From Kribbella jiaozuonensis (GTDB taxonomy: Bacteria; Actinomycetota; Actinomycetes; Propionibacteriales; Kribbellaceae), in assembly GCF_005233875.1 (NCBI RefSeq), contig NZ_SZPZ01000001.1, positions 1,116,001-1,180,000 on the forward strand: 64,000 nt of DNA. The letters run 5' to 3'. The notes below the pieces were generated by a model. It did no database searches. It was not told the DNA's origin and worked only from the letters and a program-made list of their open reading frames with translations. Positions 28,779-58,640 of this stretch are shown piece after piece; positions within the stretch are counted from its first letter, which is position 1; every line of letters begins with the position of its first letter. Position numbers and translations under genes: made by a program.

Positions 28779-29873
28779 ATGCGAAACGTGGTGATCCTGG
28801 CGGGTGGTTCAGGGACGCGGTTGTGGCCGATGTCCAGAGACGACAGGCCGAAGCAGGTACTGCCGTTGGCAGCGGGACAATCGCTGCTGCGGGTGGCGTT
28901 CAACCGGCTCCATGGACTGGTCGAGCCGGAGAACATCTACGTCTGCACGGTCGGTGCGTACACGGACGTCGTACGCCAGGAGTTGCCGGAGCTCGGTCCG
29001 CACAACATCATCGGCGAGCCGGCGCGGCGCGACACCGCGAACGCTGTCGGGCTCGCGTCTGCTGTGGTGGCGCGGAATGATCCCGATGCGGTGGTCGCCT
29101 TTGTCGGTTCGGATCACCTGATCAGCCCGGAGGACGAGTTCCGGGCCGCGATCGAGCACGGGTTCGAGGTCGTCGAGGCACGTGGGCGGTCGTTGGTGAC
29201 GTTCGGGATCGAGCCGACGCATCCGCACACCGGGCTCGGGTACATCGAGCGGGGCGAGGCGATCGAGGGGACGCGCGCGTTCGTGGTCGATCGGTTCCGG
29301 GAGAAGCCGGACCGGGCGACGGCGGAGGAGTACCTGGCGACCGGGCGGTTCTGGTGGAACTCCGGGATGTTCGTGTGGCAGGCGTCGACGGTGCTCTCCG
29401 TACTCGATGCACTGTTGCCTGAGTCAGCCGCTCGGTTGCGCGAAGTCGCCGCGGTGTGGGACACGCCTGCGCGGGACGAAACGCTCGCGGAGATCTACCC
29501 GAACCTGCAGAAGATCTCGGTCGACTACGCCGTGATGGAGCCGGCCTCGCAAGGCAAGGTCGACGCGGACGTGGTCGTCGTACCGATGCCTGTGCATTGG
29601 TTGGACGTGGGCTCGTGGGCGGCACTGGCCGACACGTACGAAGCCGACGCCAACGGAAACAGGACCGACAGCATCACGTTGAGCTGCCTGCTGGATTCCC
29701 ACGACAACATTATCGTCACGGACGACCCGGATCATTTGGTCGCGGCGGTGGGCCTGCAGGGCCACATCATCGTCCACACCCAGGACGTGACGATGGTGTG
29801 CCCGTTGTCGGATGGCGAGCGCGTGAAGGATTTGGTGGCACGGGTGCAGTCGGACCACGCCAACTACATCTGA
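28779..29873 (+). CDS. manC: Mannose-1-phosphate guanylyltransferase (GDP-mannose synthesis)
   Basis: A 364-residue nucleotidyltransferase. The pyrophosphorylase signature is LAGGSGTRLWPMSRDDRPKQVLPL; further motifs are GEPARRDTANAVGL, VGSDHL, FREKPD and WNSGMFVW, all typical of GDP-mannose pyrophosphorylases. It makes GDP-Man from Man-1-P and GTP. Phosphomannomutase (42813) and ManA (45491) in this window supply Man-1-P. The C-terminal isomerase domain of some ManC proteins is absent. Confidence 0.9.
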   Translation: MRNVVILAGGSGTRLWPMSRDDRPKQVLPLAAGQSLLRVAFNRLHGLVEPENIYVCTVGAYTDVVRQELPELGPHNIIGEPARRDTANAVGLASAVVARNDPDAVVAFVGSDHLISPEDEFRAAIEHGFEVVEARGRSLVTFGIEPTHPHTGLGYIERGEAIEGTRAFVVDRFREKPDRATAEEYLATGRFWWNSGMFVWQASTVLSVLDALLPESAARLREVAAVWDTPARDETLAEIYPNLQKISVDYAVMEPASQGKVDADVVVVPMPVHWLDVGSWAALADTYEADANGNRTDSITLSCLLDSHDNIIVTDDPDHLVAAVGLQGHIIVHTQDVTMVCPLSDGERVKDLVARVQSDHANYI

Positions 29874-29879
29874 GTACAG

Positions 29880-30005
29880 CCCATCGCGGTGCTACGCGCG
29901 GCTCCTTCGTCGCCGTGCTACGCGCCGCACCCACCCACCCCCGGGCTTATCGCCCGGAGCATCCTTTCCGGCTATCGCCGGAGTTGCGGGCTGTCGCCCG
30001 GACCC
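29880..30005 (-). repeat. Hairpin element copy A0, inverted
   Basis: Reverse complement of the tail and last hairpins of copies A1/A2, including CCGGCTATCGCCGG and GGGCTTATCGCCCGG. Differs from A1 at scattered positions. Confidence 0.75.
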
Positions 30006-30222
30006 GTGCGCGCTGCCGCGCGAGCGACCGCCCCGTGGTGACGCCCGGTCCGCGTTCGTCGAGGCGGATCGTGGGGCGGCGTTCCGTCGTGGGCGATCGA
30101 GGCCATCGCCGCAGCACGCTTCAGTTGCCGCACCACGAGCCGTACACGAGCACAGCTCGCCCCGTTGCCCGTGCTGCGCCTAACACCCGCCTGCAGGCGA
30201 GTAGCGCGCCGCGTGGCCTACA

Positions 30223-30470
30223 ACCACATCCACCCACCACCACAGCTCGCTCAAACCCACGGGCCCGCGCCTAGCACTCACCCGCGGGCGGCAGCCCGCC
30301 ACCCCCGGCGACAGCCGGAAGGTCCCGGCGGAAGCCGGAAGTCCCCGGCGATAGCCGGAAGGTCCCGGCGGTAGCCGGAAGGGTTGCTCCGGGCGATAAG
30401 CCCCGGGGGTGGGCGGGTGCGGCGCGGAGCACGGCGAGGAACGAGCCGCGCGTAGCCCCGCGATGGGCTG
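30223..30470 (+). repeat. Hairpin element copy A1
   Basis: Starts ACCACATCC. It carries CGGGC-GGCA-GCCCG, then four 20-bp units (30304, 30324, 30344, 30364) with CCGGC-GNNA-GCCGG loops GACA, GGAA, GATA and GGTA, then CGGGCGATAAGCCC and a GC-rich tail of about 75 bases. Repeated almost intact as A2. Confidence 0.85.
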
Positions 30471-30715
30471 ACCACATCCACCCACCACCACAGCTCGCCC
30501 CGACCCACAGGCCCCGCCTAGTACTCACCCGCGGGCGGCAGCCCGCCACTCCCGGCGGAAGCCGGAAACCCCCGGCGAGAGCCGGAAGCCCCGGCGGTAG
30601 CCGGAAGATCCCGGCGATAGCCGGAATGGATGCTCCGGGCGATAAGCCCGGGGGTGGGCGGGTGCGGCGCGGAGCACGGCGAGGAACGAGCCGCGCGTAG
30701 CCCCGCGATGGGCTG
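30471..30715 (+). repeat. Hairpin element copy A2
   Basis: A tandem direct duplicate of A1, 245 against 248 bases. Four hairpin units start at about 30551, 30571, 30590 and 30610 with loops GGAA, GAGA, GGTA and GATA. Stems are unchanged while loops differ from A1. Confidence 0.85.
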
Positions 30716-30752
30716 ACCACACCCGCACGAGCACCGCGATGGGCTTACGGCA

Positions 30753-31469
30753 TCAGCCGCCGTTGGGCTCCTGGGCGTCGGTGGCTGGGTACTTCTCCAT
30801 GAACTGCTTCAGGGCATCTCCGCTGACAGACCCGCAGAACTGCCGATGGCCGAAGGACTTCTGGTCGGCGCCGGGGCCGCTCCAGTGGGCGAAGGCGAGG
30901 TTCTTGCCGTCGGGCCAGCCCTTGCCCTCCGACTGCTTGTACGGGGCCGCGATGAACTTGCCGATCGAGCTGTCGGGGAGCTTCGACTTCGACAGCTTCT
31001 CGATCTGGTCGATCTGGTCCTTGGGCATGGTGTCGCGGTACCAGAGGATCGTGTAGCCGTGCTCCAGGTTGTGGACCAGGTTCTCCACCGGCGGGCGGTC
31101 GCTGCTCGAGTAGAACTTCTTGTCGAACGGCGCCCAGACCGCGTAGTGCGGGCCGGAGGAGGGCGGGGAGACGGAGTACAGGATCTTCTCGCCGTCGGGG
31201 CGGTGGTCCTGGGTGCCGCCGGCCGCGTCGTTGGTGGCCGGGTCGCAGGAGGCCGCGGAGGCGGCCACGCCGAAGTCGGTGAGGGCCTGGTTCTTGGTCC
31301 GAGAGTCCTGCACCAGCTTGATCGCCGGGTAGGCGATGATCGCCAGGCCGACCACGATCGAGCACACCACGATGATGATGGTGCGGCGGCGGTCCGACCG
31401 GGACTGCTCGCGCTGCATCCTCTCGATCATCTCGCGGCGCGACTGCTTCTGCGACGACGCTTTACCCAC
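30753..31469 (-). CDS. DUF3105 membrane-anchored extracytoplasmic protein
   Basis: A 238-residue protein with a basic N terminus, one membrane helix at about 30-52 (TIIIVVCSIVVGLAIIAYPAI) and an outside DUF3105 domain with GPHYAVWAPFDKKFY, ENLVHNLEHGYTILWY and HWSGPGADQKSFGHRQFCGS. The conserved His, Cys and acidic residues hint at metal binding, but the function is unknown. GTG 31469 is chosen because homologues begin GKASS; ATG 31511 has no ribosome site. Confidence 0.82.
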   Translation of the reverse strand: MGKASSQKQSRREMIERMQREQSRSDRRRTIIIVVCSIVVGLAIIAYPAIKLVQDSRTKNQALTDFGVAASAASCDPATNDAAGGTQDHRPDGEKILYSVSPPSSGPHYAVWAPFDKKFYSSSDRPPVENLVHNLEHGYTILWYRDTMPKDQIDQIEKLSKSKLPDSSIGKFIAAPYKQSEGKGWPDGKNLAFAHWSGPGADQKSFGHRQFCGSVSGDALKQFMEKYPATDAQEPNGG

Positions 31470-31555
31470 AGTGTTGGTCTTCCCGGCTAAGGGCGGCCAC
31501 CGCGCCGCCATGCGAAGGCAGTGTACGAGGCAACCCTAAGAAGTTGCCTAGAAAA

Positions 31556-56344: not shown

Positions 56345-56393
56345 CAAGTGCTTTGAGGTGGGTACTGCGGTCAGCCCCGCGTTCTCCGCAGCT

Positions 56394-56641
56394 GCTTTCT
56401 TCGTCGCTACGCTCCTCAGCGCACCCGCTCCGCCCGCACCCGCCCACCCCCGGCTCATCGCCGTACATCCCCTTCCGGCTATCGCCGGGTCTTCCGGCTA
56501 TCGCCGGACCGTGCCGGCTATCGCCGGAGTGGGCGGCTGCCGCCGCGAGTCGCTCGCTGCGCTCGCGGTGACTGCTGGCCGGGTCAATCGATGACTGGAC
56601 CGTGGAGGCTGGCGGGTGTCGACTCCTGCTGTCATGACGCG
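56394..56641 (-). repeat. Hairpin element copy B1
   Basis: Inverted orientation. Three CCGGC-TATC-GCCGG hairpins at 56475, 56494 and 56514 (GATA loops on the minus strand). Bases 56394-56452 are a perfect 59-bp inverted match to 58557-58615. Confidence 0.85.
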
Positions 56642-56659
56642 AATGGGTGCGATCGGCCC

Positions 56660-56900
56660 CGGCGTGCTACGCAGCTGCTTTCTTCGTCGCTTCGCTCCTC
56701 AGCGCAGCTGCTCCGCGCGCACCCCCACCCACCCCCGGCTCAGCGCCGGAGCATCCCTTGCGGCTATCGCCGGAGTGGCGGCTGCCGCCGCGGATCGCTC
56801 GCCGTGACCGCTCAGGCCGGGACTGGCCGATGACATGGACCGTGGAGGCGGCGGGTGTCGACTCGTGCTGTCCCGACGCGGGCGAGTGTGAGCCGCCCGC
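56660..56900 (-). repeat. Hairpin element copy B2
   Basis: A diverged direct copy of B1 about 240 bases on. It keeps the CTTTCTTCGTCGC start and the GGACCGTGGAGGC segment (56837 against 56597), but only one TATC hairpin remains. Confidence 0.75.
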
Positions 56901-58442: not shown

Positions 58443-58640
58443 CCACGGCACGCCGTGGACCGCGGGCGGCAGCCCGCAGATTCCGGCGATAGCCGGAAAA
58501 GTCCGGCGATAGCCGGATGACCCGGCGATAGCCGGAAGGGGATGCACCGCGCTGAGCGGGGGTGGGCGGGTGCGGGCGGAGCGGGTGCGCTGAGGAGCGT
58601 AGCGACGAAGAAAGCGGCCGCGTAGCCCGCGGGGTAGACC
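58443..58640 (+). repeat. Hairpin element copy C
   Basis: Direct orientation. It starts with a 7-bp stem CCACGGC/GCCGTGG, then GCGGGC-GGCA-GCCCGC, three CCGGC-GATA-GCCGG hairpins at 58483, 58503 and 58522, and the tail with the 59-bp inverted match to B1 (58557-58615). Confidence 0.85.

Follow-up and report, generated by a model that had tools for sequence, protein, structure and literature searches.

The hairpins at 29880-30715 of the window (the whole analysed stretch of 64,000 nucleotides from Kribbella jiaozuonensis) belong to a larger element that is directional and dispersed in this Kribbella genome, about 250 bases in size and built from strings of tight hairpins. The element family is dispersed, directional and structured, is tied to gene ends and is unevenly distributed among related species; its classification as a genus-specific, non-autonomous family of REP/BIME-like interspersed palindromic elements with a new architecture is, in our judgement, an even call. 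A dispersed repeat family with one plan had been proposed in the initial annotation for copies A0, A1, A2, B1, B2 and C: Six heads detected by covariance models fit this proposal, and the pattern CCGGCGRNAGCCGGAA is found far above chance (124 occurrences in the genome versus one of the reversed pattern; CCGGCGNNAGCCGG: 195 occurrences versus 29 of the reversed control). The initial annotation had recognised neither the head hairpin nor the linker, and it had missed both the one-way orientation relative to stop codons and the insertion sequence targeting the element.

In the reading direction of the upstream gene, the parts of the element follow each other in the order P1 head, linker, H1, tetraloop hairpin array, further hairpins and tail. 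The onset of the P1 head is sharp and lies at AGCCC or (A/G)CCCC; the information content amounts to approximately 0-0.4 bits per position across most of the 30 positions upstream of the head and reaches almost 2 at the edge (the edge motif served as alignment anchor, so that the sharp step arises partly by construction, which does not hold for the missing upstream conservation). P1 is a two-storey hairpin composed of an outer stem, a symmetric 3x3 internal loop (TNC/TNC), an inner stem and a pyrimidine-rich apex, e.g. CTTCGTCGCTCCGCTCCTCA. It is followed by the C-rich linker CCCACCCACCCC, nearly invariant among the aligned heads, by the pentaloop hairpin H1 (loops TTATC, TCATC or TCAGC) and by an array of one to eight CCGGC-TNYC-GCCGG tetraloop hairpins with a period of 19-20 bases. 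Downstream of the CCGGC array, hairpins are formed on other stems (CGGGC, CGCGC, GCGGC, CGAGC) with unchanged loop type, and the element ends in a less conserved tail. What had been taken for a GC-rich tail is in fact the element's head, which is conserved and forms a two-storey hairpin with covariation. The strand read at that time is antisense to the neighbouring genes. Two subfamilies, A and B/C, are distinguished; copies 1-3 of the window belong to A, copies 4-6 to B/C.

The six covariance-model heads of the window are located at 29882-29983 (+), 30363-30465 (-), 30609-30710 (-), 56375-56490 (+), 56658-56775 (+) and 58520-58634 (-). The region 29880-30715 lies within the 879-bp gap between two convergent genes that provide its context, the upstream gene of a ManC-like nucleotidyl transferase (28779-29873, +) and the gene of a DUF3105 protein (30753-31511, -); one copy reads right from the ManC-like gene and two read left from the DUF3105 gene. 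Based on the sequence, the alignment of 20 A-type heads and the covariance-model match, the P1 head of copy 1 was assigned to 29877-29929 (+), its AGCCC start being positioned 4 nt past the ManC-like stop codon. The linker CCCACCCACCCC (29930-29941, +) shares its last base with the outermost base of H1 (29941-29957, +; CCGGGC-TTATC-GCCCGG, GATAA loop on the minus strand), and three tetraloop hairpins with differing stems (CCGGC-TATC, CGGGC-TGTC, CGCGC-TGCC) follow at 29968-30022 (+). Copies 2 and 3, with heads assigned on the same three grounds, lie on the minus strand: Copy 2 consists of the P1 head (30418-30470), the linker (30406-30417), H1 (30389-30405), four CCGGC units with a 20-base period (30304-30378) and a GCGGGC-TGCC-GCCCGC hairpin (30284-30299); copy 3, directed towards the DUF3105 stop codon, consists of the P1 head (30663-30716), the linker (30651-30662), H1 (30635-30651), four CCGGC units (30551-30624) and a GGGC-TGCC-GCCC hairpin (30531-30546). 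Both copies (30223-30470 and 30471-30716) represent a tandem duplication with 91.5% identity. The whole facing pair spans 29877-30716, its outer arms (29877-29981 and 30611-30715) being complementary to 94% over 105 nt, and a solitary outer arm, AGCCCATCGCGGTGCT, is present at 30730-30745 (-) as an exact inverted repeat of 29878-29893; the relative G034 has these two arms fused to a single palindrome. Covariance model and sequence identified copy 4 (56375-56547, +; head, linker, H1, three CCGGC units and a GCGGC-TGCC hairpin), copy 5 (56658-56792, +) and copy 6 (58462-58640, -; head, linker, H1, three CCGGC units and a GCGGGC-TGCC hairpin).

From an alignment of 66 heads, the covariance models R1 (subfamily B/C) and R2 (subfamily A) were built. 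The search of the genome and its relatives that the initial annotation had suggested as a check yielded 100 complete heads in this genome (R1, E<=1e-5), copies in related species and the stem covariation described below. Within the genus Kribbella, matches were obtained in 29 of 38 genomes at 1e-3 (20 of 38 with R2) and in 24 of 38 at 1e-5 under stricter filters; there was no match in 256 other genomes of the same order (1e-5) nor in 394 other genomes of the same class (1e-6). The number of heads per Kribbella genome varied from 100 in this species to 36 (G033), 27 (G011), 20 (G034), 5 (G032) and none in several. The copies are situated mostly outside called genes. The assumption that no named family has this form held: Rfam gave no match at the gathering score (and none at E<=1 for 29860-30770), no match to the element was retrieved from plasmid and phage collections, and the open-access papers searched included none on these Kribbella repeats.

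The structure of the element is conserved and the sequence of its stems is not: stems change with compensation across the family. Among the 33 B/C heads of this genome, both sides were changed in 9 of 20 pairs, corresponding to 37 such cells versus 14.5 in shuffled alignments (none of 500 reached 37) and at most 5 in slid controls. The 57 heads from other Kribbella genomes, left out of model building and yet aligned with the model, revealed both-sided changes in 19 of 25 pairs (75 cells versus 24.4 shuffled and at most 13 in slid controls); the copies are related by descent and the cells are thus not independent events, a relatedness that the slid controls preserve. The stems originally described as invariant are so for the CCGGC units of the 29880-30715 stretch, but not for the family.

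In the 65 arrays, 189 of 230 four-base loops carried T..C in the sense strand (G..A in the antisense strand) over several different stems, as did 48 of 71 five-base loops; the control, four-base loops closed by C-G in other parts of these loci, gave T..C in 43 of 506 cases. In the arms and apex of P1 (116 heads), GC-TNC-GC occurred 240 times versus four times for GC-GNA-GC (control DNA 479:479). The antisense strand obeys the rule GC-G(N1-3)A-GC almost throughout, with loops GNA, GNNA and GNNNA. The retention of the outer G and A of the tetraloops was borne out for most loops, the suggested likeness to GNRA was not: on the G..A strand, five of 189 tetraloops fit GNRA and 182 fit GRYA, and the loops of neither strand are of the GNRA or UNCG type. 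Stems of two or more G-C pairs capped by a GNA or GNNA loop form extraordinarily stable DNA mini-hairpins, GCGAAGC melting near 78 C (PMC4686876). The Kribbella element has such G(N)A and G(NN)A loops with the same closure by two or more G-C pairs; the published mini-hairpins, d(GCGNAGC)/GNNA, were synthetic oligonucleotides (PMC4686876), whereas the rule recurs throughout a natural repeat family in Kribbella and is extended by GNNNA. Because nearly every loop follows this mini-hairpin rule, the constrained molecule may be single-stranded DNA of the strand that is antisense to the upstream gene. The rule is that of the most stable DNA hairpins described in chemistry, so that a single-stranded DNA and an RNA reading can be tested directly against each other. 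Read in sense, B/C-type P1 contains fewer G-U than A-C combinations; this is a hint at the antisense strand, with few informative pairs and with founder effects as a possible cause. Folding energy was also considered for the choice of strand: The antisense strand folded better in 128 of 129 heads, but dinucleotide shuffles reproduced the gap (antisense minus sense -11.06 observed, -11.10 shuffled), and this composition effect was dropped as evidence.

With regard to genes, 44 of the 67 heads with known context had a same-sense stop codon no more than 250 nt before their start, at a median distance of 28 nt (quartiles 7-46). Of the heads in convergent gaps, 29 were near their own upstream stop and two were not; in tandem gaps, 15 were near, one was far and seven had the opposite orientation. 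Another 13 of the 67 heads were in gaps called divergent, some of which possibly hide uncalled genes, as the context was derived from a home-made codon-usage caller at about 45 loci that misses short or unusual genes, and some divergent calls may err. With regard to the inverted REP doublet with short spacer that replicates as a REPIN, facing pairs were common in convergent gaps with very variable spacing; single copies were also common.

This one-way siting right after stop codons and the enrichment in convergent gaps would also be expected of a structured 3'-UTR RNA that is kept by selection because it ends transcription, shields mRNA 3' ends or stops convergent antisense transcripts, and that spreads passively by recombination and gene conversion. 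Such an RNA role, possible in our view if on balance doubtful, is a serious rival to single-stranded-DNA spread, and the two are not exclusive but can coexist. The conserved pairing is in accordance with it, and at the manC-DUF3105 locus the element occupies the place of an ordinary terminator-like hairpin in 17 other species; furthermore, an influence on translation is reported for those REPs of E. coli that lie no more than 15 nt from a stop codon (PMC12306157). However, terminator-like sites (GC-rich hairpin plus T run) were absent from 29600-31000, the region of the copies, the tetraloop classes typified by GNRA and UNCG are missing, and the shortage of sense G-U relative to A-C would be unexpected for a sense RNA, unless explained by founder effects. 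In addition, the same genes lack the element in most relatives, and one site (L010, second) has kept its native terminator with the element located after it. If single-stranded DNA is the form that spreads, the element, once placed, would still give the upstream gene hairpins in its 3'-UTR, with a possible part in ending or protecting its transcripts. Of the two origins initially offered, a structured RNA and a hairpin spread by a mobile enzyme, both remain, without the GNRA loops of the former and, as outlined below, without a RAYT-type enzyme for the latter.

The gap between manC and the DUF3105 gene measures 879 bp in this genome versus 48 bp in G034, 0 bp in G026, 54 bp in G032 and 61 bp in G018, the four nearest relatives compared. 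The element was in none of 19 further Kribbella manC-DUF3105 loci, the gaps of which were mostly 63-230 bp long with ordinary hairpins; four B-type copies were present in the gap of G011 and one in that of G033. According to this cross-species comparison, the site is empty in most species and filled by other subfamilies elsewhere. At other sites, this genome has gaps of 1011, 669 and 422 bp where relatives have 20-37, 42-402 and 70-172 bp, frequently including remnants of the element; no clean empty site or insertion with target duplication was found among the twelve sites compared. Relatives differ in copy number, in the sites occupied and in subfamily, so the family spreads; both spread and decay of the element are evident. 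As one species has about 100 copies and its close relatives have few or none, it should be possible to date gains and losses and to seek the enzyme by comparison. Unrelated tandem palindromic repeats (e.g. CCCGAGGCGGCGTCCGCC..., CACGAGGGGATATCCGCTCGTG...) were observed in the gap after the ManC-like gene of G002 (L139), G016 (L141), G023 (L145) and G035 (L154); unrelated repeats in other species mark this gap as a hot spot of hairpin repeats in general.

The gap of G034 (L098, G034:C1:3692300-3692900) contains, between both stop codons, a perfect 44-bp palindrome (GTAGCCCATCGCGGTGCTACGC/GCGTAGCACCGCGATGGGCTAC) whose arms are the first 22 bases of the element, joined in both orientations. Together with the tandem duplication of copies 2 and 3 and the unrelated palindromic repeats in the same gap of four species, it might indicate a local growth of bidirectional terminator palindromes by replication slippage and tandem duplication without dedicated mobility. 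We consider this improbable: one sequence, one part order and one sharp edge recur at about 100 unlinked loci, which slippage cannot give, and the palindrome is explained equally well by a deletion across the GCGCG common to both arms. It can be such a deletion product, or an ancestral terminator or pre-insertion state.

In agreement with the non-autonomous appearance noted initially, there was no transposase beside the copies, and no autonomous partner element with shared terminal inverted repeats was found for the Kribbella element. A RAYT/IS200-type transposase, which had been proposed as a search target, was rejected as mobiliser: Y1_Tnp (PF01797) had no match in this genome (G000) or 36 other Kribbella genomes, the sole match being in G008, a genome without element matches, so that the domain is absent from all element-bearing Kribbella genomes found. 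Whatever enzyme mobilises the element, this genome encodes no Y1 (RAYT/IS200-type) transposase that could do so. A hairpin-reading enzyme acting in trans might copy the element to new 3'-flanks, where it would then multiply locally by tandem duplication and could be removed by deletion between inverted arms. That the family constitutes a distinct class of single-stranded-DNA mobile elements of Actinomycetota, with the chain of GNA/GNNA/GNNNA mini-hairpins on the antisense strand as its signal and with spread to gene 3' ends by a non-RAYT enzyme, is a decidedly tentative and rather unlikely extension.

An IS3-like insertion sequence was observed in no other target than the element: all four of its copies occupy one linker position of the element in one orientation. 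These copies are represented by four right and four left ends, all at contig ends of G000 where the assembly is broken: C1 start (L158), C5 end (L171), C9 end (L178) and C12 start (L169) as well as C6 start (L163), C7 start (L164), C10 start (L167) and C8 end (L174). The start of OrfA resembles HTH_Tnp_1 (E 5.5e-4) and the end of OrfB weakly resembles rve_3; the family assignment is tentative because the transposase is known from end fragments alone. With its ends (TGAGGTGTATCGAGG... and ...GTCCACAATCCTTGACA) differing from those of the element, the insertion sequence is regarded as a user, not the source, of the element; its landing only in the Kribbella repeat makes it a second, independent reader of this repeat. 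It was absent from the other Kribbella genomes, save for one unrelated one-mismatch match. A MITE-like miniature derivation of the element from this insertion sequence is very improbable: both occur together in the same genome, the only place where the insertion sequence was found, but it lies inside the element linker, has unlike ends and is lacking in the other element-bearing Kribbella genomes. The IS3-family members IS1397 and ISKpn1 insert specifically into REPs (PMC1525189); the Kribbella sequence is alike in that all four copies share one repeat position, and differs in repeat family and host, its transposase being seen from end fragments.

REP-like repeats are best known in Proteobacteria, where they are explained by the RAYT transposase; the Kribbella family shows a REP-like lifestyle in an actinobacterial genus without this enzyme. 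REPs are high-copy extragenic palindromes that are clustered, near stop codons, compensated in their stems, uneven between related genomes and targets of specialised insertion sequences (PMC3733652, PMC3116915, PMC1525189). The Kribbella element resembles the GTAG/CGTC-tagged REP/BIME/REPINs in copy number, clustering, stop proximity, compensated stems, unevenness and insertion-sequence targeting. In contrast, none of 130 Kribbella units was flanked (4 nt) by GTAG, CTAC, CGTC or GACG, and the genome is without a Y1_Tnp/RAYT gene; as tag and transposase were tested and not found, the element was not filed as a RAYT-type REP. It is, moreover, larger and composite (two-storey head plus C-rich linker), keeps a constant orientation to the upstream gene and belongs to the Actinomycetota, for which a 2013 survey lists neither tagged super-family. 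Like ERIC, RUP, RU and MITE-like sequences, it is non-coding, 100-250 bp long, dispersed and foldable; it differs from them as a tandem hairpin array with no single-copy terminal inverted repeat or target duplication shown.

Between two facing elements (L013:3961-5665), a YefM-YoeB toxin-antitoxin pair is encoded in this genome; the equivalent site contains a GNAT acetyltransferase in G018 (L120) and neither gene set in G034 (L118) and G026 (L119). Facing copies may bracket exchangeable genes. The differing gene content between facing copies at this site was the reason for considering an integron attC array, a system with an IntI integrase and R'/R'' boxes. The element was also considered as an insertion sequence with an own open reading frame in the 1.7-kb stretches between facing copies; this was rejected, as those stretches share the elements alone. 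Two pairs of element matches, at G000:C6:1275141-1275829 and G000:C11:38948-39636, have identical scores and spacing, which suggests a duplicated stretch in the assembly or the genome.
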